Shown piece by piece: positions 10,880-61,890 of a stretch of 64,000 nucleotides of DNA. How positions within the stretch are numbered: the stretch's first letter is position 1; every line of letters starts with the position of its first letter. The translations under genes were made by a program, and so were the position numbers. A model generated the notes under the pieces. That model worked only from the letters and a program-made list of their open reading frames with translations. It was not told the DNA's origin and made no database searches. This DNA is from Gautieria morchelliformis (Eukaryota; Basidiomycota; Agaricomycetes; Gomphales; Gomphaceae), in the NCBI GenBank assembly GCA_015179125.1, contig WHVA01000105.1, forward strand, positions 124,001 through 188,000, read 5' to 3'.

Positions 10880-11024
10880 GGTGTACTCGTTTATTGGCTG
10901 TGGGTCGATTGAGAAACTTTTTTCGGAGTGCCATGGCACTCGCTCAACCACGTGATCCCCCGCTCTGAGTCGGGGGCTTGAACTTAACCACTTGTTTTTT
11001 TCGGTTCAAGCAATACTTCGTACT
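10880..11024. promoter_or_regulatory. Shared divergent promoter of BET5 (-) and TRM112 (+)
   Basis: The two start codons are 145 bp apart and point away from each other. The interval contains a CCAAT box on the minus strand (10893-10897), a perfect 14-bp palindrome AGTGCCATGGCACT (10927-10940), an E-box CACGTG (10949-10954) and an inverted repeat CCCCCG/CGGGGG near 10958-10977. A T-rich tract lies just before the TRM112 ATG. Function is inferred from position and motifs only. Confidence 0.6.
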
Positions 11025-13417: not shown

Positions 13418-13570
13418 TCCTGCTGATTTGTGTGCCTCAGGGCGTGTGGCTTACACATTTTCATTAATGGCTGTACAGCAATCAAACATGCATATAGATA
13501 CTTCAGGGGCGAAACAGCATTTTTCTGGATGTTTTTATTGCACATTTAGGAGTAGTTACTTATACTAAAA

Positions 13571-14225: not shown

Positions 14226-14228
14226 GGC

Positions 14229-14937: not shown

Positions 14938-14942
14938 CAGGC

Positions 14943-34412: not shown

Positions 34413-34458
34413 GTATTTTCAGACTGCTTACACCCTACGTATCCCTTTTCTTCACTAT

Positions 34459-35690
34459 GTCCATGATAACTCGATCTTGCACCCTTCGGGGTATATCAGA
34501 ACAACGACGTTTCTTGGAAGCCCCCGACGATTCACCACCGTCCCCGGGGATACCCCTCACAGACCCCGCCGAGCCTAGTAACAAAGGCAAAGGTAGGGCT
34601 GACCCCGGTGACCTTTCAGGTGATCCAGGTGATGGCTCTGGAGGTTCTGACAATGATCGGGACCTCCCCAACCTGCCACCCGAGGACCTCGGTGACCTCG
34701 AGGACAACGAGCTTATGCGTCGAGTGTTCATCAAACTCGCGAAACCTCGCGAGTCCGAAGCACGAGCCAAGGTCAAGGAACCGGATAGTTATGACGGTAC
34801 TGACCAGGCCAAGCTTTGCACCTTCTTCCTTCAATGCGTACTCAACTTCCGAGATCGTCCCACAGCGTTCAAGACTGGGGCCTCGAAGGTGCAGTATGCT
34901 ATTTCTTACCTGTCTGGCTCAGCTCTACAGTATTTCGAGCCGGCGATCCTCGACGAAGTCCAACCTGAGCCAGATTGGCTCGAGGACTGGGACAGCTTCA
35001 AGGCCGAGCTCGAGCTCAACTTCAGCCATACGACAACGCTGCCCAAGCCGAGATTGACCTCGAGAAGATCGTTATGAAAGAGCACCACAAGGCCGCGCGA
35101 TTCTTTATCGACTTCGCCCGAGCTTCAACTCGGACTCAGTGGAACGACGCGGCCCTCCGACACTTCGCCTACAAGGGCTTGGCCAAACGAATCAAGGATG
35201 ACTTACTTCACTTCCCTCGATTCCGCAGCCTTGCCGAGCTTAGGAACTTCACGCTGGAATGCGACAGCCGTTACTGGGAGCGTAAGGAATATGACGCCAT
35301 GATCAATGGTCGTAGCTCCCAGCCTGCATGCGCCACTAATCAGTCCAGCAGCAATACCACTAACAACAACCAGTCTTCCAGTGGTTCCAACAACAATAAG
35401 AACCGCAACAAGACTAACAACAACGGCAAGGGTTCCAACAACAACTCTTTGAACAACAAGAGCCAGCCCGACATATCGAGCAAGCTTGGGAAGGACGGCA
35501 AACTACTTCCTGAGGAACGCCAACGTCGGGTCGACCAAGGCCTTTGTCTACTTTGCGGCACCAAAGGCCACATTGTCAAGGACTGCCCGAAGAACAAGTC
35601 TACCAGCGGTAGCGGTTCTAAAGGTCGGGCAGCGAAGATGTCAGGGGACACCCTGTTTTCCATTTCCAGTTACGCACGATTGACGTCTTT
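34459..35690 (+). mobile_element. Gypsy-2 gag region
   Basis: It encodes a capsid-type gag (MSMITRSC start; YDGTDQAKLCTFFLQCVLNF; RTQWNDAALRHFAYKGLAKR; CDSRYWERKEY), an Asn/Ser-rich linker and a zinc knuckle CLLCGTKGHIVKDC. It is similar in layout to Gypsy-3 gag. The frame is not continuous throughout (about one break). Confidence 0.85.
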
Positions 35691-36580
35691 GGACTGACTT
35701 AGCAGTCATCGCTGGGTCTACCACCTCCTCTGCTCGACCCTCTTCCAATGGTGTTCTGTGTTCGCTCGGCTTCGCCCTCCACCTCGACCTGTCCTCCTCT
35801 ATGTCACCTCTGTTCACCCTTCCTGGCATTTCGCTGAACGATCATTCGCTGCTCGCATCATTTGCCAACAGGCACACCATCAAATCACGATCGACATCCC
35901 TATGCGGCATGATGGCTCGTCAGTAACTCCATCAGCTTTTCGATCCAACCCCCTTTTGGTGTTCATATGAGCAGGGTGCGTTCGCGGGACATCCTACCCG
36001 TAGGTCATGTGGGATCAACCCAGTAGATGAAGAACCCGTGCAGCAGTTCCGACTCCATTTCCGACTCCGCTTCCGGTTCCGATTCCATCTCCGCCTCCGC
36101 TTTCGGAAATGATTCCGCTTCTGGGAGAGCTTCCACCGGTTCTGTTCACTTTTCCAGTTCCACTCCAATTTCTGACTTCCGCTCTCGGAACAGTGTCGGA
36201 AATCAAACGACTCGCATAATAGGTGGCATCAAGGGTCGATCAAGGGTCAGGGGGATGCAGGGTTGATGGCGGGTGCCAAGTGTTGTCCCTGGCTGCGCAG
36301 CGTAGTATAATACGGGCTCGCTGACATTGGGGGTCCTTAGACTTTTCTCTTTGGATTTCCCCTTGTCAGGTGAGAATCCCCTCTCTTGTATACTCTGTTC
36401 ATTTATACATACTTTGGATTTCCCCTTGTCAGTTGTGTGGTAGTGTGATCTCCACAACCAGCCAGGGTTGCCCTTACAGAAGACCCCCAACGAGGGGACT
36501 TCGGCCTCCATTACAGAGGTGAAAAAATAGGTAGCAACCTCGGAACCACACGATCCAAGGATTGCGGTAACCTCACCCAT
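35691..36580. repeat. Foreign insert in Gypsy-2: reversed LTR-C piece plus TTCCG-rich patch
   Basis: Between gag and protease. About 35,825-36,044 is the reverse complement of an internal part of LTR-C (ACACCATCAAATCACGATCG, TCCTACCCGTAGGTCATGTG). Bases 36,045-36,200 are dense in TTCCG, the signature of the Gypsy-3 family and not of Gypsy-2. Further right the 21-bp block starting CTTTGGATTTCCCC occurs twice (about 36,349 and 36,413). Its origin is unclear. Confidence 0.65.
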
Positions 36581-36599
36581 GTGCTCAGACTCAGTGCCG

Positions 36600-39500
36600 C
36601 TTCTCATTCATTGTCCAAAGATTCCCTTAATGTAGATCTAACCTCACCTTCGCTTCCCAACGTCGCGTTTGTTGCATTAGTTGACTGCGGGTCCTCAGAT
36701 TGTTTTATCGAATCCAGATTTGTCCAGAAGTACTCTATGCCTGCTTATCCTGTCTCTCCTATACCCTTGAAACTATTTGACGGTATTACTAACACTACCA
36801 TTACCCAAGCTCTAGACCTCTGTATCTGCTTTCCGACTGGCAAACAACAATGGGTTTTACCTTCTACGTAACCTCGCTCGACTCGAGTTGCTCAGTGGTA
36901 CTTGGCCACAACTGGCTCACCCGCTACAATCCGTCGATTGACTGGGCATTGGGCAGTATTACTTTCAAGACCATCGACCTAACTACGACTCCAGCGACCA
37001 CGGCGACGTCAGCCCGCTTAGCTTCGGCTACGACTTCGACCTCGCCTACGGCATCTTCGCCCCCGCCTTCGACCTTGCCTCAGAACTCGCCTCCGAAGTT
37101 GCAAGCACCGCTCGTTTCCCTAATCAATGCACCCGCTTTCATGCGTGTGTCTATATTGGAAGGGTCCGAAGTGTTTCAGCTCAATCTGGCCTTGCCTGAG
37201 CTCCTCGCCCGAGGAGCAACATCGGGAGAAAGCTCTTCCGAGCTTTCTGAGAACGTTAAAAAACATGTTCCCGAAGTATATCACGAATTTGCAGATGTGT
37301 TCAGCAAAGCATGTGCTGACACTCTCGCCCCCCACCGACCGCATGATATCAAGATCAACCTTGAAGAAGGGACCTTGCCGCCTATCGGTCCCATCTACTC
37401 TCTCTCAGCTTCCGAACTCAAAGCACTTCGCGAGTTCATCGACGAGCACTTGAACATCGGTTTCATCCGACCTTCACGCTCGCCTCATGGTGCACCGGTA
37501 TTGTTTGTCCGCAAAAAAGATGGCTCACTTCGGTTGTGTGTCGACTTCCGAGGTTTAAACAAGATCTCGAAAAAGGATCAGTACCCATTACCATTGATTG
37601 CTGACTTACTTGATGCTCCAAAGAATGCTTGCATCTATACAAAGATTGACCTTCGTCATGCTTACCACCTCGTACGGGTGGCCGAGGGTGGCGAATGGAA
37701 AACCGCCTTCAGGACTTGCTATGGGTCTTTTGAATGGTTGGTTATGCCATTTGGTCTCACTAACGGCCCTGCTGCTTTCCAGAGATTCATGAACGAGATT
37801 TTCGCCGACCTTTTGGACGTTTGTGTGGTGGTATACTTGGATGACATTCTAATCTACTCCAGTGACCCCTCCAAACATATTGAACATGTCAAGGAAGTCT
37901 TGCGATGACTGCGACTCAACAACCTCTTCGCCAAAGAAGATAAATGCGAGTTTCATCGCGACTCGGTTGAATTCCTCAGCTACATACTCTCTCCTGAGGG
38001 CCTCACTATGGCGGACGACAAGGTAAAGGTCATTCAAGACTGGCCTGAACCTCGCAAAGTTCGCGACATCCAGTCTTTCCTCAGTTTCGCCAACTTCTAC
38101 CAACGTTTCATTCACAACTACTCCCACATCACCATTCCTCTCACCCGACTCACCCGCAAGGGTACCCCTGGAACTTTTCCAAGGATTGTCGACAGGCCTT
38201 CAACCTGTTGAAGAGGGCGTTCACTACCGCTCCTATCCTTACCCACTGGATTCCTGACCTTCCACTAATCGTAGAGACTGATGCTTCAGATTATGCCTTA
38301 GCGGCAATCTTATCACTGCGAACCTCGGAAGGTGAACTTCATCCTGTCGCCTGTCACTCCCGCACATTTACCTCTACTGAGCTCAACTACGATGTTCATG
38401 ACAAGGAACTCCTAGCAATTTTTGAAGCGTTTCAATGCTGGCGACACTACCTCGAGGGTTCTGGCAACCCTGTCGACGTTATCACCAATCACAAGAACCT
38501 CGAATACTTTTCAACAACGAAGCTCTTGACCCGTCGACAAGCTCGGTGGTCAGAATACCTTTCCCAATTCAACCTCGCCATTCATTTCCGACCTGGTCGC
38601 CTTGGAACGAAGCCTGACTCTCTCACTAGACGATGGGACGTCTACCTTAAAGAGGGGAATAGCGACTATGCCACCATAAACCCACAGAACCTACGGCCAG
38701 TGTTTACTCAACACCAGCTGGCATCGTCCCTTAGAGCTACTAACCTCGCTCCCGTCGTACTCTGAGCTGCTTCGATGCTTGATACCGAGCAGATCTGAGC
38801 TGACATACTAGCGAACCTCCCCTCGGACCCCATAGCCAAGTTGCACCTCGGCTTGGTTAATGACCCGAGGTGGACCACAGACCCCGAGGGTTTCCTCAAA
38901 CTTGACAACCGAACCTATGTTCCAGCGGCCCAAGACCTTCGACTTCGCATCCTGCAATACAAGCACGATCACATTCTCTCGGGACACTTCGGGGTCAACA
39001 AGACCTTGGAGCTGATCCGACGAGACTATACTTGGCCAGGGATTAGATCCTTTGTCAAGGAGTATTGCAAGACGTGTACCACTTGTATGCGAAGCAAGCC
39101 GCAACGTCACAAACCCTATGGTCTCCTCAAACAACTTCCTGTTCCCGAGAAACCTTGGAATTCCATATCTATGGATTTCATTGAGCAACTCCCCCCTTCA
39201 TCCGAGTTCACCTCCATCCTAGTGATTGTTGACCGCTTCACTAAGCAGGTTATCTTCATTCCAACCACCGACAAGATAACCTCGCAAGAGCTCGCTCACC
39301 TCTTCGTCCTTCATGTCTTTTCCAAGCATGGAGTCCCCTCGCACGTCACCTCGGACAGGGGTTCCGAGTTCGTCTCGCACTTCTGGCGTTCTCTGGGGAA
39401 AGCCTTGGACATGCGGTTGCATTTTACCTCGGGATATCATCCCGAGGGTGACGGTCAAACCGAGCGTGCTAACCAGACCTTGGAACAGTACCTCAGGATA

Positions 39501-40252
39501 TACTGCAACTATCAACAGTCCAATTGGGCTTCACTCCTTCCCCTCGCCGAGTTCGCTTACAACAATGTGCCTAGCGCAACCACCGGCATATCCCCATTCT
39601 TTGCTAATAAGGGTTACCACCCGAACCTCGCAGTCCACCCCGAGCGCGACCTCACCTCGGCACGAGCTCAAGACTTCGTGGTTGACCTGGACGAGCTACA
39701 CCAAGAACTTCGCCATGCCATCCTCGAAGCTCAGAAAACCTACCAGCCTCAGCCGATGTTCGCCGCAAACCCGCTCCTGATTTCCAAGTAGGATCCCTCG
39801 CCTTTGTAAAGGCACAGTACTTCCGAACAACTCGGCCGACCAAGAAGCTCGCCGAGAAATTTTTGGGTCCTTTTGAGATCATTTCCCGAGCGGGTACTCA
39901 CTCCTTCACCCTTCGACTCCCAGAACACATGCATTCAGTCCATCCAGTATTCCACGTATCCATGCTCGAACCAGCCTCGCCCAACACCATCCTGAACCGA
40001 GTTCAGCCTCCTCCACCCCCAGTCGTCATTGACGGCGAGCCCGAGTTCGAAGTCTCGGAAATCCTTGACTCCAAGATCGATAATAGACGAAAGAGCTGCA
40101 AGCTGCTCTATCTTGTTCGGTGGACTGGATATGAAGGTACCGACGAAGAAACCTCGTGGATCCTCACTTCCGAGCTTGATCATGCCTCGGAGCTGGTCAC
40201 TGACTTCCACGAATCTTACCTGGGCAAGCCGGGCCCTTTGACTGCTCTATGA
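36600..40252 (+). mobile_element. Gypsy-2 pol: protease, RT, RNase H, integrase, chromodomain
   Basis: Protease (VALVDCGSSDCFI), reverse transcriptase with the active-site block VVYLDDILIYS near 37,830, RNase H (ETDASDYALAAILS near 38,275), an integrase zinc-binding and core region (CKTCTTCMRSKPQRHKPYG, DRGSEFVSHFW, YHPEGDGQTERANQTLEQYL near 39,440) and a C-terminal chromodomain (FEVSEILDSKI, LYLVRWTGYEGTDEETSWI near 40,060-40,160). The order is that of chromoviruses. A handful of breaks is present. Confidence 0.92.
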
Positions 40253-40445
40253 TCGTTTTCTTGTTTAACCCCTATGACCCAGTAGTAGATACCAAAATCC
40301 CCTCGCAATCGAACAACACAAAAAATCAATAAAATCCAAGAAAAATTCCATTATCCCATCTACTAGTTTACTCCAACATCCTCATATCCTCTCCCTCGCT
40401 CTCCTCGCTACCCTTGCCTGACTCCTCCTCATTACTACTGCTACT

Positions 40446-41251
40446 TCACTCCACCAAACCCCCATGTCCCCCATAATCCGCCAAGTCTCTCGCCCCCTGC
40501 ATCCGCTTCAAGTAATTCCGCCTCCTCCTTATCCTCATGAACTCCACATCCGCCCTGTTCATCCTATCATTCGCCGCCCTAAACTCCCCCAACAACTCAC
40601 ACACCCTTTCCCCAACCTCGCCAACCTTCTGTCCCACGTCCCTCACTGCCGCTATCAACTCCCTCATCTCCGCACTTTGCTCCGACCTTTTCGTCTTCTT
40701 GTCCTTCTTCGCCCTCCGACCTTCCACCTTGGTTTCCTCTACCTCGGTTTCCTTCCCCTCACTCGACCCCTTACCCTTCTCCTCGCTCAACCTCGTGTCC
40801 ATCTGCTCCACCCTCGTCTCAAGGGTCCGCTCGACCCAGTCACTTGAGTCGCCGTCCTCTGCAGCCTCGTCCCGAACCTTGGCCTCTTTCCTCGGCCTCG
40901 GCCTTGGTCGCGAGTTGCCACTCACGAGGTCCTCTGTCGGCAAGCTTGTACCCATATAGGGACAAGTCGGTAGGGTGGTACAAGAACAACATGCGCTTAT
41001 ACTATACAAATCAGCAGCGTCCATGACCAGACAACGACGGTACTCACCTTCTTGCTGTTGGGCCCTTCTTGCCACGGCTTCCGCATATCTATGGCCCCCG
41101 CATCCTCGATGGGCCGCGGGACCACGTCGGGTCGAACCTCGGGCATAACCTCACCCGAGGGACCATCCTCCTCAGACAACAAGGTCTGGTCAAACACGTT
41201 CGTGCTGTTTTCGTCGATAGCAGAGTTGAAGAGAGCTTGGGGGCGCACCAT
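40446..41251 (-). mobile_element. Gypsy-2 antisense ORF
   Basis: Opposite in strand to pol, between the chromodomain end (40,252) and the 3' LTR (41,423). It starts at about 41,251 (MVRPQALFNSAIDENS), is acidic and Pro-rich, reaches a probable 52-bp GT-AG intron (41,047-40,996), and continues as a charged C-terminal half with a long helical, coiled-coil-like run (AEMRELIAAVRDVGQKVGE, then ELLGEFRAANDRMN) ending near 40,446. It matches the position and general layout of the Gypsy-3 antisense ORF, but I see no secure cysteine cluster. Whether it still encodes a protein is unknown. Confidence 0.6.
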
Positions 41252-41422
41252 ATTCGTTGGCACTTGGGTTTGCTGCCTCCTACCCACCCTTTTATCTAAC
41301 CTCGGCTACGATTAAGCTTCACCTTTCCGGCGACTGAACATCGGGCCGGGATCTAGATTCGAGGATAGGCGAACCTTGTTCACATTATGGCCTCGAGGGT
41401 CTCGGCCATAAGGAGGGGATAC

Positions 41423-41972
41423 TGTAAGAACCCGGCCTTTGGCCGGTTACTTACCGGTATAACTTTCTTCCGAGCCTGAGCCTTGTGATACTCGTGCCTG
41501 AGTACATATGATTCTTATCCTGTGCCCGAGCCTGAGCCCGAGCTACAGCTCATATCCGACCTTGATCCCATGCCTGTATCCCCTTAGTTACTGATTCCGC
41601 TCCATCACACATCATTCATTTATTACCTTTCCCTGACCTCGCCCTGACTCCCACTAATATGTTCGCCCCTGACTCGTACCCTCGCCCCATATATAAACCC
41701 CCCTGTATGCATTCCTACTCCTCAGTCTGAAAATCAACTATCGTATAACTTCGATCCCTAGCTAGTTTCTAAGCCTCGCCTCTTAAGCCAAACCTCGCCT
41801 CTTATTCGTTTGCCTCCGAAGTTGGGACTCGTGCGTAGGGTCGGCGCAGCACATAAGCTGAAGCCTAGTCCCTTTCCGACTTCCCCATCCAAACCTCGCC
41901 CCGTAACCTCAGACCGTACCTCGGGTTTCGCTCCCGACCTTGGTCAACCTTACGGCGGATCGTATCGTAACA
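41423..41972 (+). repeat. Gypsy-2 3' LTR
   Basis: 550 bp, same ends as the 5' LTR, followed by the CTGTG target duplication. Compared with the 5' copy it has lost some CpG sites and gained others. Confidence 0.92.
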
Positions 41973-48649: not shown

Positions 48650-49335
48650 TGTTACGTATCGAGATTTCCGCTAAGTCGGAACTGGAAAGGACAGCGGCTT
48701 CAACTTATAGGTTGCGCCCCCAATGAACTATTGTCCTAGGTATTTCGGAAATGAGTCGGAAGTCAGAAAGTACTGAACCAAAGTTTTTGGTCGGAACTTC
48801 AGTCGGAACTGAGGCGGAAGGCGGAAGACGGAGAGACTGAGATCTTGCTAGACTCGCTGTGCTAAGAACAGGAGGTGGAGCGGAGGAAATCAAGTATCGA
48901 AGGCGATTATCTGATTGCAGAAAGAGAGACATAGATGACAGGCTTTTATACAAAGAGCTGAGACAACAGGTAATGATATGGTACTAAGCAAATTCCGGAG
49001 GAAGCGGAAGTCGAGTAGACAATGCGTGGGAACTAACTATTGGGGAACAATGGGACTACAAGGGGGGTTCAGGGTAAGGTAGAACAATGGCAAAAGAACA
49101 AGGGGTCGGAAAAACATATCTGACAACGAACTACAAGGGTGACCGGCTATGTGGTTTTGATGAACGATGAAACGGGTCCGGTGGGTCTGAGTAATAGAGT
49201 CGAAAGAACAAGGGAAATGTACAAGGGGCGGAATGTCGGAAATATCAGAGGGGCGGAATGTGTTGCGGAAATATCGGAGGGGCGGAAGGTGTGGTGGAAC
49301 TGAGGGTCGGAAGTCGGAAATGAATGGTCGTAACA
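48650..49335 (-). repeat. Gypsy-3 3' LTR
   Basis: 686 bp. My hand count finds CGGAA 16 times on the plus strand and TTCCG twice, against about 0.7 expected per strand at even composition. Confidence 0.93.
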
Positions 49336-49458
49336 GTATCTCCCTTCTAAGATCGAGCCCCGCGAGACCACAAGTCGGAATCACGTGACCTGTGAACAAA
49401 CACGTTGGAGTTCGAAAGATAGGCGGGAAAACAAGACGCGTCTTCTTTTTTATCCACC

Positions 49459-50690
49459 ATGAGTACTCCAGTCGACTTCTCCAAAATGACCAGTGCTGAG
49501 ATGAAGCAGCATTTTGCCGACATGCTTGCGCAGAAGGAACTGGCCGAAAAGCGCGAGGCCGAGGAAGCCGCGCGGAAAGAGAGGGAGCATCTGGAGGAGG
49601 AGTGCAAGGAAAAAGAGCGCAAGGAACAGGAGCGTCGGGAACAGGAGCGGAAAGAGAAGGAGGAGCGTGACCGTAACGTCGCGAGGAGGAGTCGCATGTC
49701 CGCGAAGAACAGCGGAAACGGGACGTGGCCAAAAAAGCTGCGGAAGACAAGGCCGCGGCGGAGAAGGGGGGACAATCCCGGGTGAGTCGGAAACGTCATG
49801 TGCTTAGTTCTGGTGCTGACAGAAGAACTTGGCAGAAAATAATTGTCGAATCCGATTCCGAACCGGAATCGGAAGACACCGCGGAAAGCACGCCGTCCCC
49901 TGAGGGGAAGGGGAAGCAACAGGAAGTAGTTCCTGTGCTGAACCTTGTGGCGGATCAGAAAAGGAGGGCGGACGAGTTTCAGCAGGCCAGGAAAGACAAA
50001 ATGGCCCGTATCATCGATCTTCGGGAGTTGGGACCGGAGAATCCCGCGACCCGGAAATGGAAGACGAGGGACGGGGAAGAAGAAAAGGCTCCTTGTGACA
50101 CATGCGAGGTGAAGGGGCACAATTGCGTATGGTCGGAAAATCCACGGGAAACCGCCTGCGAACGGTGCCGCGACAAGAAGAGGCGGTGCGTCGTGGACGG
50201 CTGTTCTGCGAGGGTGGAGCGGAAAAGGCGGAAAGTCGAGACCGAGGGGCCAGAAACCCCAAAGTCAAAACCAAGGCCGAGTGGGAAGAAGATGGCGGAA
50301 GGGGTTCCGGCGACCGGGAAGGCGGTCATGTCGCCTCTGCTTGACATCGCCGAGTCTCTGAGGGGTATCCGGAGATCCCAGCGCGGGATCCGGAACACAC
50401 TCGAGGAGATGTCCGCAGTTCAACAGCAACAGCTGTTGAGCTTCCAAAACCAGATGACGGTTTTGTCGGCAGTTGTGGAGCAGATCAAGCGGGAGTTCCA
50501 GTGGCGGAACAACATGCTCCGGGAACGAATGGAGCGGAGGATGCAGGAGGAGGATGGGGCGGAAGCGGGTCCGAGCCAGGTGGTGGATACGAGGGTGGGG
50601 ACCGAGTTGGTCAACGTGGAGATAGGTCATGCGGAAGAGGGTGCGGAAGCGGAGAACGAGGGTGGGGCGGAAACGATGAGGGAGGAGTAA
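49459..50690 (+). mobile_element. Gypsy-3 antisense ORF: coiled coil plus Zn2Cys6-like cluster
   Basis: Plus strand, opposite to pol, between the chromodomain end (50,821) and the 3' LTR (49,335). The first block starts MSTPVDFSKMTSAEMKQHF and runs into a highly charged Glu/Lys/Arg helix. The second block (to the stop at 50,690) holds six cysteines near 50,096-50,190 spaced C-X2-C-X6-C-X10-C-X2-C-X6-C, which satisfies the fungal Zn2Cys6 pattern. The basic run RDKKRR lies in the second half rather than the first, as if the halves were swapped. A helical region (MSAVQQQQLLSFQNQMTVL, then EFQWRNNMLRERME) follows. The frame changes once between blocks; an intron is possible. DNA binding is inferred from the motif, not shown. 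Confidence 0.68.
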
Positions 50691-50820
50691 GTGTCGTGGT
50701 GACTTGTAAAATATTTCTTGAAGTGTCGGAATTTAGTGTAGCGGAATATTAATCGGATTTGACCAATGACTTGAGAACTTGTAAGAAAGCAATGGGTGTC
50801 GGAAATGAGGTCGGAATTGA

Positions 50821-52250
50821 CTAGGGCGCGGAAATGGGGCCAGGCTTATCAGGATATGACTTGTGGAAATCAGAGACGAGGTCAGAGGTGTGGTCTAGTT
50901 CCGTGGCGGAAATCCACGAGGTCTCTTCGTTGGTGTTTTCATAGCCTGCCCACTTGACTAGGTACTGGAGTTGGCAGCGGTATTGTCTGTTGAGCTTGGA
51001 GTTGAGAATTTCCGAGATCTCATATTCCGGTTCTCCGTTGATGACGACTGGCGGAGGCGGAGGTTGTTCTCGATTCGGAATTGTATTCGGAACTGCGGGC
51101 TCAAGCATAGAGACATGGAATACCGGATGTACTGCGCGCATATTGTCAGGAAGTCTGAGAGTGAAAGAACGGCTGCCGGCCTTAGCAATGATCTCATAAG
51201 GACCAAGGTATTTTTCAGAGAGCTTCTTCGAGGGGCGAGTAGTGCGGAAGTTTTCCGCTTTGACAAAGACTTTGTCGCCAATCTCAAATGCCGGTTGTGG
51301 AAGCCGTTTCCGATTGGCTGAAGTTTGGTATCTCTTCTGGGCAGCAGAGATGTTCTCTCGGAGGTGTTGGTCAAGGTCGTCGAGTTCCACAACAAAATCT
51401 TGGGCTCTTGCAGAGGTGAGGTCGTGTTCGGGGTGGATGGCGAGATTCGGGTGGTAGCCCTTGTTGGCGTAAAAAGGTGAAATTCCGGTGGTAGCGGAGG
51501 GCGCGTTGTTGTAGGCAAATTCCGCAAGTGGAAGGAGGTTGGACCAATTGCTGTGTTGGTAGTTGCAATAGACACGGAGATACTGCTCAAGGGTCTGATT
51601 AGTACGTTCCGTCTGTCCGTCTCCTTCGGGGTGATAACCGGAAGTGAAGTGGAGCTTCATGTCGAGAGCCTTGCCAAGTGTGCGGAAAAAGGAGGACACG
51701 AATTCTGATCCACGGTCGGAAGTGACATGGGAAGGGATTCCGTGCTTGGAAAAGACGTGGAGCACGAAGAGCTGTGCGAGCTGGGCGGAAGTTATGGTGT
51801 CGTAGGTCGGAATAAAGATGGACTGCTTTGTAAGGCAGTCAACGATCACTAGAATGGTATCATAACCAGATGACTTAGGAAGTTTCTCAATGAAATCCAT
51901 GGATATCGAATTCCACGGTTGTTCCGGGATCGGAAGTTGCTTCAGGAGGCCGTAGGGTTTGTGACGTTGAGGCTTGGCTCGCATACAGGTGGTGCATGAC
52001 TTGCAGTAGTCTTGGACCATCATGCGGAGGAGGGGCCAAGTATAGGTACGTCGGATTATGTCGAGGGTTTTGTTTTGGCCTTGGTGTCCTGAGAGCTGGT
52101 GATCATGGCTTTGCTGGAGTACGCGAAGTCATAGATCATTGGTGTCCGGAACGTAAATCCGGGACTTGTACCGGAGAAATCCGTTGGAATCGAGGGACCA
52201 TCCAGGACTGGTGGGGTCATCGAGGTGGGTTGCGGAGATGGGGTCGGAAC
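50821..52250 (-). mobile_element. Gypsy-3 pol, second part: integrase and chromodomain
   Basis: Integrase (CKSCTTCMRAKPQRHKPYG, DRGSEFVSSFFRTLGKAL, YHPEGDGQTERTNQTLEQYL) and chromodomain (YEISEILNSKLN, LQYLVKWAGYENTNEETSWI near 51,000-50,900). About 400 residues are open from 52,023. Its upstream end meets Copia-2. Confidence 0.9.
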
Positions 52251-55200
52251 TGTTAGCAACTCGGGGCTATGGCAGGGAAGGTTCGGTAGAGTTCTTAGAA
52301 AGCTAGAATCAAATATACTCTCTCAGTGAATTTATTGTCACTGATGTATTAATACAATACCTAGAATCAAATATACTACATGATTTTCAGTCAACATGCT
52401 ATGTAAATATGAAGAATACTACTCGCCTCTCTCAATGAATTTATTGTCACTGAGAGAGGAGTGTAATCCTGTCTCAGAAGGCATATACTTGCACCCGGCC
52501 CTTTAGCGCCCAAGGGCTCGCGCGTCGAAGTCATTTCAAACTCCGCTGGGTGCAGCCGCCTGTGAAAGTAGAAATAACAGAATGAAATGGAGAGATAGAG
52601 AGTGACTGGAAAATTTCGAAAATAAGCAGAGAAATGGATGCATGGTACAAGAACAGTATGAGAAAATATTGAAACACCACACAATAAATTGAATATATTA
52701 TGCTTGATTTTGGTGCAGGAGCATAAATGCACCCAACACGCCCCCTCAAGCTTAATATATTCCGATTTTCTCATTGAGGATTCTCACTCTAGGACTAGGA
52801 AGTCCTTTAGTGAGAAGATCGGCTAGCATGTGTTCCGTTGGCAGGTACACAAGCTTAATTTCTTCATCTTCGACTATATCTCTGATGAAATATAATCTAA
52901 TGTCGAAATGCTTGGTCCTCGTGTGTTGTTGAGTGCCATAGACGATGGCAATGGCTGATTGATTGTCTGAATAAAGTTTGATGGGACAATTCAGCGGTTG
53001 GAATACTTCAGAAATAAAGTGGCGCATCCATAAGGCTTCTTTACTCGCATGAGTCAGGGCAACGAATTCGGCTTCAGTTGATGATAGGGCTACAATGGAT
53101 TGTTTTTGACAACTCCATGATACTGTCCCTCCATCAATCTGAAAAATATAAGCTGAGTATGAGTGCCTGTGCTCTTGAGATGAGGCCGTCTCGATTCTTC
53201 CCAAGTGTCAATTTGTAGTCCATCGTGCCTTTTAGATATTTAAAGACACGTTTGACTGCATGCCAATGTGTTGGACCTGGGTTTTCGAGGAATTGAGAAA
53301 GTAATGACACTGCGAATGCAATGTCTGGTCGAGTGGCTACTGCTGCCCACATCAATGATCCTATCGCTTGTCTGTATGGAATTCTTGACATCTTCTGTTT
53401 GCCTTCATCTGTAGAAGGGCATTGGTCTCTGGATAATTTAACGGCTGGGTCGAGAGGCGTTGAAAATGTTTTGGCATCATCCAGATTGAATTTTTTGATG
53501 ATTTTTTGGATGTATGCGGCTTGTGATATTGCAATCGATTTGTTATTCCAATCTCTTTCGATTTTGAGGTTTAAAAGCCAGTGAATCTCGCCTAGGTCTT
53601 TCATACTAAAAACCTGGGCAAGGTCATGCTTTACCTCATCGAGGATTGGTTGACTCTCAGCTGTGATAGTGAGGTCGTCTACCGCCGTTGCAATAATCGC
53701 ATGCCCTCTCGGTCCACGTCTGCAAAATACAGCTCCATCCGAAGCTGATTTAGTGAATCCTAACTTGAGAAATTCACCACTCAGATGTTTGTACCATTCC
53801 CTTCCAGACTGTTTGAGGCTGTAAAGTGCTTTCTTCAGCAGGAGGACATCATCTTTGTCTCCGGTCTCATATCCATACGGCTGTCTCATGTAAATAGGTT
53901 CTGGCAGTGTAGCATTCAAATACGCACTGTCCACATCCATTTGGTGAATAGGCCAGTTGTTCCTGGCAGCAATGGCACATATAATCCGTAAGGAAGTCAT
54001 CCGAGCAACAGGTGCATAGGTTTCATTGTAGTCGACTCCAAAACTTTGTGTAAAGCCTTGGGCGACCATCCTCGATCTAGGTGTAATGGGTTCACCTTCT
54101 GGATTGCGTTTCCAGAGGAATACCCATCTATTTCCGACAATATTTACCCCAGGAGGTGGTTTAACCACTTCCCATACACCTTTGTCAAGTAGCACCTGGT
54201 ACTCTTTATCCATCGATGCTTTCCACATAGGATCATTTAAGGCTTCATCTGCATTGCTAGGCTCAGTCTGATTCAAATCCGGCAGCACATTATCTTTGTT
54301 TTGATCGGAGGTCGAAAGTGTACTGATGGCAAGGTTATAATCACTGATGCCGTCAGTGACAGAGGATAAATCTTGTTCGAATAATTTGTCTTGATGGTCC
54401 TCAATGTCCTCGTAAGCTAGTGTAGTGATATCTGCACCAGCATGTCTCTTAGCTTGAGATCTTGTTACGGGACCACTTGGGGCCGGCTGCACCTGCTGCT
54501 GACGGATCCTCTCGCTTCTCCTTGTTGGAGCAGCTTCTTTAGGTCTGACATCAACAGTCTGACTGGGTTGCAGCTCTTTCAGACGTTCCTCTGGTTCATC
54601 ATCATCAATTTTCTCGATCTTTGCCTCTTCGCTGACTAAGCGGCTAGGCATAGGTGCTGGCGCCGAGATGGCCTGTATCATTTTTCTGGACGTAGGTAGC
54701 TGTGACTCTTCAATAGAAATGATTGGAGCTTTGCCCCCCTTCATCTCTGAGTCAAATATAACATTCCGCTCGACAGAAACCTTCTGAGAGTCAGGCCAGT
54801 AGATGCAGTGACCATGGCTCTGTCCAGAGATTCCTATCCATCGAGCTCTTTTGGCACGGGCTGATAGTTTGTTTCCCTCTTTGACTTTGACGTAGACTTC
54901 AATTCCCCACACGTGTATGTCCTTCAGGTTCGGTTTCTCGTGATGGATCATTTCAAAAGGGGTTTTGTCTGGCAAAGCTCTTGTGTGTGTCCTATTCCTA
55001 AGATAGTTGGCGTGCAAAATTGCATGCCCCCATAGAGTCTTAGGAAGACTTTATTCCAATAGCATGGCACGAGCTCTTTCAACTAGAGTTCGGTTTAAAC
55101 GTTCAGCAACACCATTCGACTCTGGGGTGTCGTGTACGGTTAACCGATGCTTCGTGCCTTGCTTGGCTAAATGCTGTTCAAATTCCGAGCTTGTGTATTC

Positions 55201-57470
55201 GCCCCCTCTGTCGGAAACAAGTGCTTTGATGTGCACATTCCTCTGTCGAAGCATCAAGGCCTCGTAGAGTTTGTATTTTGAAAATGCTTCCGATTTGTTT
55301 GCCATCAAATAGATAACCGATTCTCTTGAGTAGTCGTCGATGAAAGACACATAATAGAATTTCTTGTCAATTGTAGAGTGTCTCGCTGGTCCCCAGACAT
55401 CAGAATAAATTCTGTCACCGAATTTTGATGATCGGCTTCTGGGTTCCTGAGGAAGTGATTTGCGTGCAATCTTCGCCTGAATGCACGCATCGCAAACAAC
55501 CTTGTCACCTTTTGAGCTCAATTCAATGCCTAATATCATGCCACGGTTGAGCAAATGCTGTAGGGACTTTTGTGAAATGTGCCCCATTTTCTGATGTATC
55601 TCCATGGCTGATGCGCATACATGCGCTTTGGCACTTGTGTGTTGTAAATCAAATCGATATAAGCCATTCAGCTTCGGTGCTTGCATCAATATCCTGCCTT
55701 TACGATTGGATATTGTGCATTTCTGATCAGCTATTTGTGTGTTATAGCCTGCATCATCGCACCGGCCGATCGAGATGAGGGTAACAGCCATTTTTGGCGC
55801 GTAGAACGTATCCTTCAATGTAATGTTCACAGTCTTATCTCCAACCTTGTTAGATAGCACGAGTGAGCCTGAACCAAAGGCATCAAAAGTGCCTTTGTTG
55901 GCTGCACGAATTGTGCGCGGCTGTGAGAATGGACTGTAATCCCTCAATAAATTCTTGTGAGGGGTCATATGTGCGGTCGTTCCAGTGTCGAGAATAACAA
56001 CAGTGTCCAGAGATAAACTACTCAAATTAGAGCAGTCGAAGTTGGCGAAAGCGGCTGGACTGCCACTCTCATCCTCCTCAGAGGACACTTCTTCGGCAAC
56101 ATTCGCCTTGGCTTTGCCCTTCTTCTTTTTGGGTTTGGCTTTCTTCTTCTGACGTGGCCCCTGGCCTTCTTTACCACCTCCTTTAGCCCAGCAACTCTCT
56201 ATAGCATGTCCAGGCTTGTGGCAATTAGTGCATGTAGACACCTTCGGGTCTTTCTGGCCCTTCTGCCCTTTCGTAGATGAGCCAATAAATGCCTGCTCTT
56301 CTTGTGAAATATTGAGAGTCTTTCTCCTGTCGTATTGAGCCTTTAGTACTCTGATAATATCATCAGGCACTAAGGGCAATCCACATTCTTCGAGCGACGT
56401 GGTAAGGGCATTCATAACTGCCTCATAGGAGGGTGGAAGTGATGCAAGGATGATGTCGGTGAACTCTCCTTCAGAAACTCTGGCTCCCATCTCATTGAGA
56501 CGAGCATAGAGGTCTTGGGCCTTGTCCAAGTGATCTCTCAAGTCTCCATCCTCAGGACATCTCATGCTGCGAAGCTGTCTCTGTAGGTTGGTGAGGACCA
56601 TCTTGGGCTTTTTGGTCATCTCATTGACCAATGCATCCCAGACTTCTTTTGCTGTATGTCTCTTCTGTAGCATCAGAGCTAGTGACTCTGACACTGAGAC
56701 GATTATTTGGGTTTTGGCCTGTCCTTCTCTGGCAAGATACTTCTCCAGCTTCTCCTCAGCCTTCTCAATCTGAGTTTCCTCAGCTTCTGTGAGAATATGG
56801 CCTGGGGGCATGACTGGAGGATCAGGAGGTCGAATGGCTCTCCCTTCTATATGCCTGAGTAGATTTTTGGACTCAAAATAACTTGTGAGAGTAGCTCGCC
56901 ACAGAGGCCAATTACTTCCATCTGTTGCAAGCTTCTCCACACCCAAAAGCTTCTGCGAAGTGTCTGCGGGGCCCATAACCCTTGTTAGCAACTCGGGGCT
57001 ATGGCAGGGAAGGTTCGGTAGAGTTCTTAGAAAGCTAGAATCAAATATACTCTCTCAGTGAATTTATTGTCACTGATGTATTAATACAATACCTAGAATC
57101 AAATATACTACATGATTTTCAGTCAACATGCTATGTAAATCTGAAGAATACTACTCGCCTCTCTCAGTGAATTTATTGTCACTGAGAGAGGAGTGTAATC
57201 CTGTCTCAGAAGGCATATACTTGCACCCGGCCCTTTAGCGCCCAAGGGCTCGCGCGTCGAAGTCATTTCAAACTCCGCTGGGTGCAGCCGCCTGTGAAAG
57301 TAGAAATAACAGAATGAAATGGAGAGATAGAGAGTGACTGGAAAATTTCGAAAATAAGCAGAGAAATGGATGCATGGTACAAGAACAGTATGAGAAAATA
57401 TTGAAACACCACACAATAAATTGAATATATTATGCTTGATTTTGGTGCAGGAGCATACATGCACCCAACA
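52251..57470 (-). mobile_element. Copia-2, LTR retrotransposon inside Gypsy-3 pol, target duplication GGAAC
   Basis: 5,220 bp, the same length as Copia-1 and nearly identical to it. LTRs 52,251-52,738 and 56,983-57,470, with GGAAC on both sides (52,246-52,250 and 57,471-57,475). By eye the LTRs differ at only three of 488 sites, so it is the youngest datable insertion in the window. The parts match Copia-1 (gag, knuckle, protease, integrase, RT, RNase H), about two breaks, one of them shared with Copia-1. Confidence 0.94.
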
Positions 57471-57475
57471 GGAAC

Positions 57476-59714
57476 GAAGTGCGGAACGGATGTCGGAATG
57501 GAGAGACTCGGTGTCCATAATAATTGAGGCGCGGAGTAGCGGAAACTGCAATGCTGTGGCACGCAGGGACAATGCCAGTTGCTCAGTAGAGAATACTGGG
57601 TGGAAATTGTGCGGATTGACGCTGGCATAGTCGCTACTTCCCTCTTTTGGGTAGACGTCCCAACGTCTAGTGAGTGCGTCGGGTTTTGCTCCGAGCTTTC
57701 CAGGGCGGAAGTGGATCACCATGTTGAACTGTGAGAGATATTCAGACCAGCAGACTTGACGGCGAGTCAAAATCTTGGTAGTGGCAAAATACTCAAGGTT
57801 CTTATGATCCGTTACAACATCGATCGGATAGGTTGGACCCTCGAGGTAGTGTCTCCAAATTTTGAAGGCTTCGAAAATCGCAAGTAGTTCCTTATCGTGG
57901 ACGTCGTAGTTGAGTTCCGGGGCCGAAAAGGTGCGGGAATGAAAGGCGATCGGATGAATTTCTCCGTCGTCAGGGGAAATGATGGAAAGAATGGCGGCTA
58001 GTGCGTAGTCGGAAGCGTTGGTTTCGAGTACAAGTTGGGCATCAGGAATCCAGAAACCGAGTATGGGAGCCGTAGTGAAGGCCGATTTGAGAGCGTCAAA
58101 TGCGGAACGGCATTCCGGAGTAAAATTCCATGGGGCACCCTTCCTGGTGAGACGCGTGAGCGGAACAGTGATGTCGGAAAAGTTATAAATGAAACGCCGG
58201 TAAAAGTTGGCGAAGCCAAGGAAAGACTGCACATCCTTAACACGTCGGGGTTCCGGCCATTCTTGAATTGCCTTGACCTTGTCCTCTGCCATGGTAAGAC
58301 CTGTTGGAGAGAGGATGTAGCCGAGGTATTCGACCGTGTCGCGGTGCCATTCGCATTTCTCTGCTTTTGCGTAGAGATGATGTTTGCGGAGACGGCGGAG
58401 TACTTCGCGGACATGTTCCCGATGTTTTTCCGGTGTGTCGGAATAAATGAGGATGTCGTCAATGTAGACTAGAACGCATATGTCGAGGAGGTCGGAAAAT
58501 ACGTCGTTCATGAATCGCTGAAAAGTGGCGGGAGCATTGGTTAGACCAAAAGGCATGACAACCCACTCAAAAGCACCGTAGCGGGTGCGGAAAGTGGTTT
58601 TCCACTTGTCACCTTCCCGGATGCGGACAAGGTGATAAGCGTGCCGGAGGTCAATTTTGGTGTAGATCTTCACCCTGCGGGGAGTGTCGAGGAGGCTGGA
58701 AATGTGCGGAAGCGGATATTTGTCCTTCTTAGTGAGGGCGTTGAGTCCGCGGAAATCGACGCAGAGGCGGAGAGATCCATCCTTCTTCTTGACGAAAAGG
58801 ACCGGGGCGCCGTGCGGAGACAGCGAAGGGCGGATAAAGCCCATGTTGAGATGTTCATCAATGAACTCGCGGAGAGTTTGGAGTTCACTTTGCAAAAGGG
58901 AGTAGATCAGGCCAAGGGGCGGAGATGCTCCTTCTTCCAAATCTATCTTCAGATCGTAAGGTCGATGTTCAGCTGGTTTATCGGCTTTGGCCTTGTTGAA
59001 CACGTCCGGGAAGTCACGATATTCTTCTGGAACTGAGCTCATGTCGACCGGAGTGGAAGTCGAGGCGGAACGAGCCTTGACTGAAGCTGAATCGGAAAGG
59101 TGAAGCTGGAAAACGGTCATGTCTTCTTGCCGTTGCAATACGCGGAAAGCGGTGGCGGAGACGAGCGCAATTCGAGGAGCTTCGAGGGACGGAGGTGCTA
59201 AAGCGGGACCGGAGTGCGGAACTGAATCCACGAGCGGAGTTGCAGAAGAGGCCTGAGCCATCTTTGCGGACGACGTCGGAATAGACGGAAGTTGATCCGG
59301 GGTACGGAACTGTATTTTACCCAATGCCCAGTTAATCGACGGATTATATTGGGTGAGCCAATTGTGTCCTAGTACAACGGAACAGCTAGCATCTAGCGGA
59401 GTAACGTAAAACGTAACTTCATGGTTGTCCCCAGTAGCGAAACGGATAGACAGATCCACAACTTGGGAAATTCCCGTGTTGGAAGACCCATCGAAAAGGC
59501 GGAGCGGAATTGTCGGAATGTTGCGGGTCGGAAGTTTATGTTTCAAAACAAAGTTGGAATCGAGGAAAACAATGAGTTGATCCTGAGTCGACCAGTACTG
59601 TGAATGGGGGTGCGGAAATGGCGTCGGAAGTGAGCGGAACAGAGAGGGAGTCGGAGGACGAAAGAGCGGATGCGTTGAGTTTAACCTCGTTTGTCGCATG
59701 AATGGGGTCAACAC
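57476..59714 (-). mobile_element. Gypsy-3 pol, first part: protease, RT, RNase H
   Basis: A retropepsin-like start (VVLGHNWLTQYNPSINWALG), reverse transcriptase (LCVDFRGLNALTKKDKYPLP, VLVYIDDILIYSD near 58,450) and RNase H ending HFRPGKLGAKPDALTRRWDV near 57,650. The open reading runs into the Copia-2 LTR at its downstream end, so sequence beyond 57,475 is not part of pol. Confidence 0.9.
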
Positions 59715-59750
59715 AGCCCTCAGCTCGTGCGGAGGCCGGAGGACTGCTGA

Positions 59751-61172
59751 CTATTTTTTTGAATCCGCAGCGGGAGCCGCTTTGGATTTCTCTTCCGTCT
59801 TTGCTGCGCGGCCCTTGGCCTTAGCAGCGGAGGCGGAAGCGCGAGTGCAGTCGGGAGCGACGTGACCGCCTTTGCCGCAGAAAAGGCAAAGGTTGTTGTC
59901 CATGCGACGCTGGCGTTCTACAGGGGTTAACTTTCCGTCCTTCCCAAGTTTGTCGGAAAGGTCCGGAGTGCTCTTCCGGGCGTTGGTGTTGGAACCAGAG
60001 GCCTGGTTGTTACGAGGGGTGGAGTTGTTGTTCTGGTTGCCGGAGCTGGATCCGGAACTGTTGTTGTTGTTGTTGTTGTTTCCAGAGTTGGTGTTTCCGG
60101 AATTAGTCTTCTTCTTGTCTTTGTCAGACTTCTTGTCGGAAGACTTGTCGTTCTTGCTCTGGGCGGAAGTTTCGCGAGCAATCTCGGAATGTCTTTCCCA
60201 GTAGCGCGAATCGATGGATTGGGCGAGGTTGCGGAGGTCGGTAAGGGTGGCGGGTTTTCCGATGCGGGCAATTTCATCCTTGATCCGGGATGGCAAGCCC
60301 ATGTAAAACTGGCGTCGGAGTGCGGGTTCTCCCCATTGGACTCGAGGAGCAAGCTGCTGGAACGTGATGATATATTTAGCTATCTTATGAGTGTCTTTCA
60401 TGCGAAGCTTATCGAGTTCATTTTCCGCATCGGCTTCCATATCAAATGGTCTGAAGTTGCTGCGGAGTTCGGAAACGAAGTTGTGGTAATCGTCGGCCCA
60501 GTCGATGGGAGCGAACGGATCCATGAGGGCGGGTTCGAAGTAGTTGAGAGCCGTGCCTCGGAGATAGGAAAGGGCATAATTGACCTTCCGTTCGTCGTCG
60601 GGAAAGGCGTCGGGGGGATCACGGAAATTGAGTTGAAGCTGGACCAGAAATGGCTGGAGCTTCTTGGGGTTGGATCCGTCGAACTGATCTGGTTCGCGGA
60701 CCTTAGTCTTGGGGCGTGGTGGTGCTTGGGCCGGGCGCTGGAGTTGTCCGGCTAGCATGGCTATGGCTTGCGCAAGATCCGGAAACGGCACAGGCGGAAC
60801 TGGGTTGGCGGGAATCTGAGGTGGAATTGGAGGTGGAGGACCGCCTGGGGGACCGCCAGGTGGGCCACCATGAGGGCCGCCTGGAGGTGGTCCTGGTGGA
60901 GGTGGTGGTGGTGGAGCTGGGCGTCGGAATGACGCTGCTGTTTGTTCTCCGCTGCTACTCGTCGAATTCCCGTCATAGTCGGGATTGTAGTCGGGATTAG
61001 CGTCGGGAACCTCTTCGAATCGTTGCGGAAAAGCATCGGAGAGCTCATCGTCGGCACGAGAGCTGCCAGAGGGTTCCGCGTGCCTTGGTGCTGCGGATCT
61101 AAGGCTGCCAAAATAAGAGAGAGCTTCGACAGCTCCTGCTCGAGCTGAAGTAGCTGTGGTACGAGGAGGCAT
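59751..61172 (-). CDS. Gypsy-3 gag
   Basis: An open frame of 473 residues starting 34 bp inside the 5' LTR. Acidic N-terminus, a long Pro/Gly run (PPPPPPPGPPPGG), capsid core (REPDQFDGSNPKKLQPFLVQ, WGEPALRRQFYMGLPSRIKD, IDSRYWERH), an Asn/Ser/Lys linker and zinc knuckle CLFCGKGGHVAPDC near the end. It is the structural polyprotein of the element and looks whole. Confidence 0.88.
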   Translation of the reverse strand: MPPRTTATSARAGAVEALSYFGSLRSAAPRHAEPSGSSRADDELSDAFPQRFEEVPDANPDYNPDYDGNSTSSSGEQTAASFRRPAPPPPPPPGPPPGGPHGGPPGGPPGGPPPPIPPQIPANPVPPVPFPDLAQAIAMLAGQLQRPAQAPPRPKTKVREPDQFDGSNPKKLQPFLVQLQLNFRDPPDAFPDDERKVNYALSYLRGTALNYFEPALMDPFAPIDWADDYHNFVSELRSNFRPFDMEADAENELDKLRMKDTHKIAKYIITFQQLAPRVQWGEPALRRQFYMGLPSRIKDEIARIGKPATLTDLRNLAQSIDSRYWERHSEIARETSAQSKNDKSSDKKSDKDKKKTNSGNTNSGNNNNNNNSSGSSSGNQNNNSTPRNNQASGSNTNARKSTPDLSDKLGKDGKLTPVERQRRMDNNLCLFCGKGGHVAPDCTRASASAAKAKGRAAKTEEKSKAAPAADSKK

Positions 61173-61205
61173 AGTGATAGTTATCGGGTGGGAATCAGAT
61201 AATAC

Positions 61206-61890
61206 TGTTACGTATCGAGATTTCCGCTAAGTTGGAACTGGAAAGGACAGCGGCTTCAACTTATAGGTTGCGCCCCCAATGAACTATCGTCCTAGGTATT
61301 TCGGAAATGAGTCGGAAGTCGGAAAGTACTGAACCAAAGTTTTTGGTCGGAACTTCAGTCGGAACTGAGGCGGAAGGCGGAAGACGGAGAGACTGAGATC
61401 TTGCTAGACTCGCTGTGCTAAGAACAGGAGGTGGAGCGGAGGAAATCAAGTATCGAAGGCGATTATCTGATTGCAGAAAGAGAGACATAGATGACAGGCT
61501 TTTATACAAAGAGCTGAGACAACAGGTAATGATATGGTACTAAGCAAATTCCGGAGGAAGCGGAAGTCGAGTAGACAATGTGTGGGAACTAACTATTGGG
61601 AAACAATGGGACTACAAGGGGGGTTCAGGGTAAGGTAGAACAATGGCAAAAGTACAAGGGGTCGAAAAACATATCTGACAACGAACTACAAGGGTGACCG
61701 GATATGTGGTTTTGATGAATGATGAAACGGGTCTGGTGGGTCCGAGTAATAGAGTCGAAAGAACAAGGGAAATGTACAAGGGGCGGAATGTCGGAAATAT
61801 CAGAGGGGCGGAATGTGTTGCGGAAATATCGGAGGGGCGGAAGGTGTGGCGGAACTGAGGGTCGGAAGTCAGAAATGAACGGTCGTAACA
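61206..61890 (-). repeat. Gypsy-3 5' LTR
   Basis: 685 bp, pair of 48,650-49,335. A TATA-like TTTATACAAAG (plus strand) lies near 61,500. Followed by AGGCA. Confidence 0.93.

Follow-up and report, generated by a model that had tools for sequence, protein, structure and literature searches.

Gypsy-3, a long terminal repeat (LTR) retrotransposon in a 64,000-nucleotide stretch of the Gautieria morchelliformis genome (contig WHVA01000105.1, positions 124,001 to 188,000 of the forward strand; this whole stretch is called the window below), is filled throughout its LTRs and coding sequence with one short word, CGGAA on the plus strand. The counts exceed those expected from dinucleotide composition and from the encoded proteins, and the loss and gain of the word among copies point to selection that keeps it in the longer form KCGGAA (K, G or T). 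Our favored explanation, which we put forward tentatively, is that the KCGGAA array is kept for a sequence-specific DNA-binding protein.

Gypsy-3 carries gag, reverse transcriptase (RT), RNase H (RH), integrase (IN), and a chromodomain between its LTRs, as a Ty3/Gypsy chromovirus does, and a 5-bp duplication, AGGCA, flanks the LTR pair. Its parts in the window are as follows, with motif counts for the plus strand.

48650-49335, minus strand (element sense): 3' LTR of Gypsy-3, with TG...CA ends; 16 CGGAA and 2 TTCCG.
49459-50690, plus strand: antisense gene of Gypsy-3, between pol and the 3' LTR; 19 CGGAA and 2 TTCCG.
50821-52128, minus strand: integrase with SH3_Tf2-1 and chromodomain; 11 CGGAA and 10 TTCCG.
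52251-57470, minus strand: Copia-2, inserted into Gypsy-3 and flanked by the duplication GGAAC; 1 CGGAA and 6 TTCCG (count to 57471).
57472-59750, minus strand: reverse transcriptase/RNase H region; 27 CGGAA.
59751-61205, minus strand: gag; 13 CGGAA and 8 TTCCG.
61206-61890, minus strand: 5' LTR of Gypsy-3; 15 CGGAA and 2 TTCCG.

Totals for the whole element omit the nested Copia-2 and count a single LTR, and expectations were taken from 500 dinucleotide-preserving shuffles per region. CGGAA, the most extreme plus-strand 5-mer of Gypsy-3, occurs 93 times against 15.6 expected, and TTCCG occurs 26 times against 8.5. The CGGAA excess recurs in the 3' LTR (16 versus 1.65; shuffle maximum, 6), the 5' LTR (15 versus 1.62; maximum, 6), the antisense open reading frame (ORF) (19 versus 4.15; maximum, 12), RT/RH (27 versus 4.8; maximum, 12), gag (13 versus 2.1; maximum, 7), IN/chromodomain (11 versus 1.55; maximum, 5), and the 130 bases at 50691-50820 (4 versus 0.24; maximum, 2). 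In two pieces too small to resolve an excess, 49336-49458 (1 versus 0.27) and 52129-52250 (2 versus 0.31), the shuffles reached the observed count. A sequence-only reading made earlier had counted 16 CGGAA and 2 TTCCG in an LTR, 6 and 3 at 58021-58620, and about 17 CGGAA in the antisense ORF; our recounts gave 16 and 2 at 48650-49335 (15 and 2 in the LTR at 61206-61890), an identical 6 and 3, and 19 CGGAA with 2 TTCCG, respectively. It had also named dinucleotide shuffles as a check, and these fell short of the observed CGGAA density in the LTRs, the antisense ORF, RT/RH, gag, and IN/chromodomain, so that dinucleotide makeup is rejected as the cause. Copia-2, said in the same reading to be free of the motif, indeed has no excess (CGGAA, 1 versus 2.6; TTCCG, 6 versus 3.5), and there is no clear excess in host-like DNA at 1-12000 (CGGAA, 15 versus 12.0; TTCCG, 8 versus 12.1), a single stretch that says little about promoters. 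The target duplication of Copia-2, GGAAC (52246-52250 and 57471-57475), falls inside a CGGAAC site of Gypsy-3, a single case that is not evidence for targeting.

Of the 93 sites, 81 have G or T directly 5' of CGGAA. KCGGAA therefore occurs 81 times against 9.2, or 8.8 times the expectation from a first-order Markov model. When one base of CGGAA behind K is changed, 14 of the 15 resulting words stay at 0.5 to 1.7 times expectation (0.5 for KCGGCA, 0.7 for KCGGTA, and 1.6 for KCGGGA) and KCGGAG alone is raised, at 3.1 times. The effective word is KCGGAA, with KCGGAG as a weaker form. A word raised above flat single-base variants looks like a protein site rather than a smeared compositional bias. 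Spacings between sites are mostly varied, by which a simple microsatellite is rejected; eight KCGGAA pairs in direct orientation at 12-bp spacing are suggestive only. Selection on CpG or on higher-order composition, with the word as a by-product (for example, of CpGs retained in a transposon-methylating genome), is very improbable. The words found do contain CpG, and the stretch at 12001-16000 has only 5 to 10 CpG per kb, far under the remainder of the window, and is perhaps an old, methylated and mutated repeat. However, the shuffles preserve CpG number, KCGGCA, KCGGTA, and KCGGGA share the CpG and are not comparably raised, and the main word of the sister family Gypsy-2 is another one.

For a null that preserves the encoded protein, synonymous codons were shuffled within each coding piece 1000 times. 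Against this null, the motif is in excess in the main antisense ORF (CGGAA, 17 versus 7.6; maximum, 14), RT (sense-strand TTCCG, 23 versus 8.1; maximum, 16), gag (13 versus 4.5; maximum, 10), and IN (11 versus 4.1; P value, 0.001); the first, short part of the antisense ORF is not enriched (2 versus 1.6). Codon preference, which the sequence-only reading had held unable to explain the motif, is accordingly rejected as its cause, and 77 of the 93 CGGAA lie outside the LTR, spread through gag, RT, IN, and the antisense gene. The further claim that the motif keeps to one strand stands as a strong bias and not as a rule. TTCCG is itself enriched over the element, the opposite orientation is equally enriched in IN (10 versus 2.4; maximum, 7), which leaves a ratio of 11:10 in IN/chromodomain, and gag has 8 TTCCG (versus 3.0; P value, 0.002; dinucleotide-shuffle maximum, 9), whereas RT has no excess in the opposite orientation (4 versus 3.2). 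The strand bias of Gypsy-3 is thus real and strong but not absolute.

The genome (122 Mb in 1113 contigs) contains at least 120 matches to the antisense protein, at 66 to 100% identity. Strand bias persists in other copies, the other check that had been proposed, and is at least 2-fold in 33 of 35 Gypsy-3 loci (L001 to L035, the window copy among them), so that chance in a single copy is rejected. The two loci under 2-fold are L006 (33:24), in which no LTR match was found, and L034 (70:54), which holds further LTR matches. Between the window LTR and the best LTR match in 33 other loci, identity is 86 to 94%. In a second Gypsy-3 copy, protein-preserving shuffles again gave an excess of CGGAA/TTCCG and none of CCTCG, the plus-strand form of the Gypsy-2 word. 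The LTRs of L031 to L035 are ~88 to 92% identical to those of the window copy, and the antisense genes of L031, L034, and L035 have a synonymous difference of 0.65 to 1.03 from most other copies; this combination of similar LTRs and diverged antisense genes may reflect either LTR constraint or gene exchange.

Evidence for selection comes from the loss and gain of the word in 33 of 37 partial copies, which were aligned. Differences in a lone copy were taken as mostly postinsertion, and differences shared by four or more copies were taken as having passed through transposing ancestors, the changes being unpolarized on a tree. Lone-copy changes in CGGAA/TTCCG comprise 56 losses and 7 gains, and shared changes comprise 14 losses and 13 gains (Fisher P value of the contrast, 2.5e-4). 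For 13 pooled control 5-mers with CpG, the ratios are 62:45 in singletons and 23:22 in shared changes (P value, 0.48); the pool excludes CTCCG (0:2 and 0:0), CCTCG (0:1 and 0:0), and five 5-mers without CpG. Word gains account for 13 of 316 shared columns and 7 of 516 singleton columns (P value, 0.018). Because singletons destroy the word while shared changes are balanced, these results point to selection that keeps KCGGAA. In the antisense genes of L001 and L031, the latter separated from nine other copies by a synonymous divergence (dS) of 0.65 to 1.03, 16 of 18 words are kept against 22 of 81 other CGNNN 5-mers (P value, 1.7e-6); the corresponding figures are 10 of 19 against 22 of 84 for L035 (P value, 0.027) and 13 of 19 against 28 of 84 for L030 (P value, 0.0055). 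Protection of CpG as such, taken as a proxy for the loss of methylation at bound copies, was not found in the aligned copies, where decay inside the word (31/1718) was not significantly slower than that elsewhere (115/4923; P value, 0.21).

A copying process, in which reverse transcription multiplies the word through slippage and template switching, without selection, would explain local tandem arrays, and such arrays exist. One lies in a second Gypsy-3 family feature of the window.

21222-22031, plus strand: solo LTR of the Gypsy-3 family, in the opposite orientation, with CCTGT at both flanks; 36 TTCCG on the plus strand (counted at 21229-22030).
21676-21869, plus strand: 7-bp tandem array of 27.7 copies inside the solo LTR, with a CTTCCGY-type unit.

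The solo-LTR array is a local motif expansion; the two LTRs of the full Gypsy-3 element have few closely spaced units of the 7-bp type. In the antisense gene of another copy (L050, positions 3590-3817), a 15-bp unit is repeated 15.2 times with 100% matches and in frame (KEQER repeats), and every unit holds GCGGAAG. These arrays and the eight direct pairs favor the replication-linked expansion that the sequence-only reading had listed, which accounts for them but leaves the scattered coding sites and the flat variants unexplained. Against a copying process as the general source of the word also stand the varied spacing, the excess over protein-preserving nulls in coding DNA, the removal rather than addition of words by lone-copy mutations, and the main word of Gypsy-2, a relative with a similar polymerase. 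We regard it as quite improbable.

Other families in the genome were surveyed for their own words, with few families sampled. The window holds one copy of the sister family.

33869-41972, plus strand: Gypsy-2, sister family, with LTRs at 33869-34412 and 41423-41972.
40446-41251, minus strand: antisense gene of Gypsy-2; at 41047-41002 it holds 46 nt that resemble an intron (GTGAGT...AG).

The main word of Gypsy-2 is CGAGGT on the antisense (minus) strand (31 versus 3.2), the closest variants, CAAGGT and CGAAGT, occurring 11 times each. The plus strand has 61 CCTCG against 15 CGAGG, and the CGAGG/CCTCG strand bias is at least 2-fold in all 14 Gypsy-2 loci. Relative to codon shuffles that preserve the protein, CCTCG is overrepresented in gag (11 versus 3.1), RNase H (6 versus 1.9), and IN (10 versus 4.9) and not in RT (4 versus 2.9), and CGGAA/TTCCG is not in excess in the Gypsy-2 coding pieces tested. 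Gypsy-4 (L051 to L062), a compact and apparently abundant family, carries the word of Gypsy-3. One copy has 39 KCGGAA per strand against 4.3 and 4.9, with a 5' G/T leaning like that of Gypsy-3 but laxer on the sense strand (ACGGAA, 8 versus 2.1; CCGGAA, 11 versus 2.9). In ten other copies, CGGAA and TTCCG are above expectation at the pol end, and in protein-preserving shuffles of one Gypsy-4 copy CGGAA/TTCCG was in excess and CCTCG was not; neither was in excess in one Copia ORF shuffled in the same way. In Gypsy-5 (L063 and L069), TCGCA/TGCGA shows a weak excess (22 versus 6.0 and 17 versus 7.0), with some variants raised too; it is densest in a 15-bp-spaced LTR array and weakly in excess also in pol. 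It is possibly a further word, and given the weak excess and the LTR array it was not counted as a clear third one.

RT identity is 61% between Gypsy-3 and Gypsy-2, 64% between Gypsy-4 and Gypsy-5, and 40% between Gypsy-3 and Gypsy-4. Since sister families differ in their main word and distant ones agree, the word does not follow pol descent, and the pattern is most simply explained by a trans-acting protein that recognizes DNA, the existence of which we consider probable. An RNA-level signal in the genomic RNA (a packaging, export, or translation element) would fit the strand bias of Gypsy-3 and Gypsy-2, but it is poorly reconciled with the 39 sites on each strand of Gypsy-4, with the 11 and 10 in IN of Gypsy-3, and with TTCCG and CGGAA both being above expectation over Gypsy-3; we judge it highly unlikely, and the packaging signal suggested in the sequence-only reading is disfavored with it on the Gypsy-4 counts.

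A candidate reader is encoded by the antisense gene of Gypsy-3. Its frame is broken in the window copy, and ten unbroken copies elsewhere in the genome encode 401 to 425 amino acids. Among 45 pairs of these 10 copies, the ratio of nonsynonymous to synonymous divergence (dN/dS) is 0.16 to 0.40, with a mean of 0.19 in the cluster region; the protein is real and under purifying selection. Its N-terminal stretch is charged; it further has a six-cysteine cluster and, toward the C terminus, a helix of high predicted confidence. In the window, the cluster, C-x2-C-x6-C-x10-C-x2-C-x6-C, lies at 50094-50189 and is followed by a coiled coil. Of the 35 Gypsy-3 loci, 34 have the six-cysteine pattern; it was not seen in L026. 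Zn2Cys6 clusters have the spacing C-x2-C-x6-C-x(5-16)-C-x2-C-x(6-8)-C, which is found in the same number of Gypsy-3 loci (34/35) and in 8 of 14 Gypsy-2 loci. In Gypsy-2 (L036 to L049), the antisense gene sits at the equivalent place, and these 8 loci have an equal cysteine plan with a middle loop of 15 residues; the window copy is without the cluster. The 46-nt GTGAGT...AG stretch is kept in 13 of 14 Gypsy-2 loci (6 by a strict pattern and 7 by a looser one), which speaks for a putative spliced antisense mRNA. Beyond Gypsy-2 and Gypsy-3, no cysteine cluster was found in the window and 69 loci, searched with one cysteine spacing in ORFs of at least 90 amino acids.

The Zn_clus profile (PF00172) matched all 14 antisense sequences weakly at a threshold E value of 10, with a best E value of 6.7e-4. 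Structure predictions of the antisense protein had mean pLDDT values of 62 and 60, and fold comparison of the predicted structure gave no match. Comparison with protein databases gave one match covering 7% of the query (7993 candidates scored) and, in another search, none among 395 candidates at an E value of 0.01; PDB sequence searches gave three weak matches, none of them Zn2Cys6, and another gave none. In its second half, CERCRDKKRRC, where both lysines are invariant in 14 aligned sequences, the Gypsy-3 cluster presumably resembles the first half of the Gal4 cluster, with these lysines in the register of Gal4 Lys18. In Gal4, Lys18 contacts the guanines of CGG (PMC5559640). The Gypsy-2 cluster has no lysine at those two places, and the Gypsy-2 word has no CGG. 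This match of residues and words across two families is a lead rather than a test.

We propose that Gypsy-3 is a dense array of double-stranded DNA sites running through LTRs and coding sequence, and that selection would keep KCGGAA in place for a sequence-specific DNA-binding protein that recognizes it and helps the element. The sequence-only reading had offered a binding or packaging signal, a silencing target, and replication-linked expansion; a binding signal, acting on double-stranded DNA, is best supported because the word is sharp, because IN and Gypsy-4 carry it in either orientation, and because shared lineages have retained it, whereas a silencing target is unlikely given that the word is apparently kept and not purged. 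The reader of KCGGAA could well be the element's own antisense Zn2Cys6-like coiled-coil protein, although we place this slightly short of even; Gypsy-4 would then use it in trans, and the Gypsy-2 counterpart would read CGAGGT. Binding might open or protect the chromatin of family copies, an anti-silencing role suggested by analogy with VANC and VANDAL elements that we hold with some reserve, and it would explain why sites extend across the whole element and not the promoter alone.

In the main rival explanation, a transcription or chromatin factor of the host acts as the reader, and the families have converged on the sites of such factors (Gypsy-3 and Gypsy-4 on those of one, Gypsy-2 mainly on those of another), the antisense gene having a separate role. 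We rate this as less probable than a self-encoded reader but as a serious possibility, because Gypsy-4 carries KCGGAA with a similar 5' G/T preference while an antisense cysteine-cluster ORF was not seen in the stretches read (L060 and L062). Fungal Zn2Cys6 factors can, moreover, read single CGG-containing sites, as Pho7 does at TCG(G/C)(A/T)xxTTxAA (PMC5559640). On the other hand, promoter use requires sites in the LTR, yet 77 of 93 lie outside it, and the one host-like stretch has no clear excess. The Gypsy-4 observation counts against our proposal, and so do several others. In the loss and gain analysis, one of the controls, CGGGA, likewise has more losses than gains in singletons (16:5, against 6:3 in shared changes). 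Most comparisons of word retention are weaker than those given above, with 5 of 19 below 0.05 and all against a single common reference copy, and some show no better retention of the word than of other CGG 5-mers. Separation of the words is incomplete, in that the whole Gypsy-2 antisense strand has 22 CGGAA against 10.3 and, outside the coding pieces tested, 14 TCGGAA against 2.9, the latter perhaps left over from an ancestral word common to both families or pointing to a second reader. Finally, the PF00172 scores are 12.4 to 16.2 bits where printed, under the curated cutoff of 21.

The proposed antisense reader finds its closest parallel in the VANDAL elements of Arabidopsis, in which sequence-specific anti-silencing is already known. 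On VANDAL21, the sites of VANC21 are dense, share a single orientation, and have multiplied through tandem repeats (PMC5735166), and VANC effects, starting from the noncoding regions that are bound, extend across the entire element (PMC10398659). Like VANDAL elements (PMC5735166; PMC10398659), Gypsy-3 has family-specific dense short words in one orientation, with tandem growth and with different words in related families. Its motif is dense and rare elsewhere but is shared with Gypsy-4 and in weak excess in Gypsy-2; same orientation and tandem turnover are both seen, though orientation is not absolute in IN; and, unlike VANC motifs, which are mainly noncoding, it is strongly enriched in coding regions. 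VANDAL words are read by element-encoded sequence-specific proteins, whereas here there is a candidate reader known from sequence. Gypsy-3 is, in addition, a fungal LTR retrotransposon with a Zn2Cys6-like cluster protein and a CpG-containing word that fills coding sequence. We therefore describe Gypsy-3 as working like a VANC system and do not class it as one, its antisense protein having weak Zn_clus matches only. AT9TSD1, an unrelated element, shares VANC6 words (PMC5735166), as Gypsy-4 shares the word of Gypsy-3, so that this sharing fits a self-encoded reader and a host factor alike.

Antisense genes at this place are themselves known. Plant Gypsy elements (Grande, RIRE2, and Retand with TRP28) have antisense ORFs between pol and the 3' LTR, for which a regulatory role is suspected, TRP28 being predicted to bind DNA and the Grande product localizing to the nucleus (PMC7264820; PMC11963269). 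Gypsy-3 differs from them in its Zn2Cys6-like cluster, and the available parts of these papers mention no saturating word. An antisense gene within a fungal Gypsy element is likewise known, as brtn of the Boty-type elements of Botrytis cinerea (PMC7264820), an additional ORF of BcGypsy1 (PMC8365987). With fungal Zn2Cys6 regulators such as Gal4 and Pho7 (PMC5559640), the Gypsy-3 protein shares a six-cysteine cluster, a basic loop, a downstream coiled coil, and, if it reads KCGGAA, CGG-type sites; it differs in having the basic half second, printed PF00172 scores below the cutoff, and no confident fold. In the open-access literature, judged from titles and the starts of abstracts and without subscription papers, we found no fungal Gypsy element that is saturated with a motif or has an antisense gene of the zinc-cluster type, and no retrotransposon with coding sequence filled by a family-specific word or with such a word paired with a cysteine-cluster antisense gene.

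A wider and more doubtful proposal is that fungal Gypsy families run private addressing codes, in which a word placed throughout the element, coding sequence included, would be read by an antisense zinc-cluster protein that prevents silencing; words and proteins would diverge together between sisters, and compact families like Gypsy-4 would cheat by copying the word. With two sister families that have different words and cysteine-cluster genes, and a distant family that shares one of the words, the pairing of protein and word is directly testable in vitro. A need for DNA binding, written into the synonymous positions of a whole element, would be an unusual second code in coding sequence, and a search for sharp words above a protein-preserving null would let other such systems be picked out from sequence alone. 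The named proteins among 120 listed relatives of the RT come from the agaricomycete genera Pisolithus, Leucocoprinus, Pleurotus, Cyclocybe, and Trametes.

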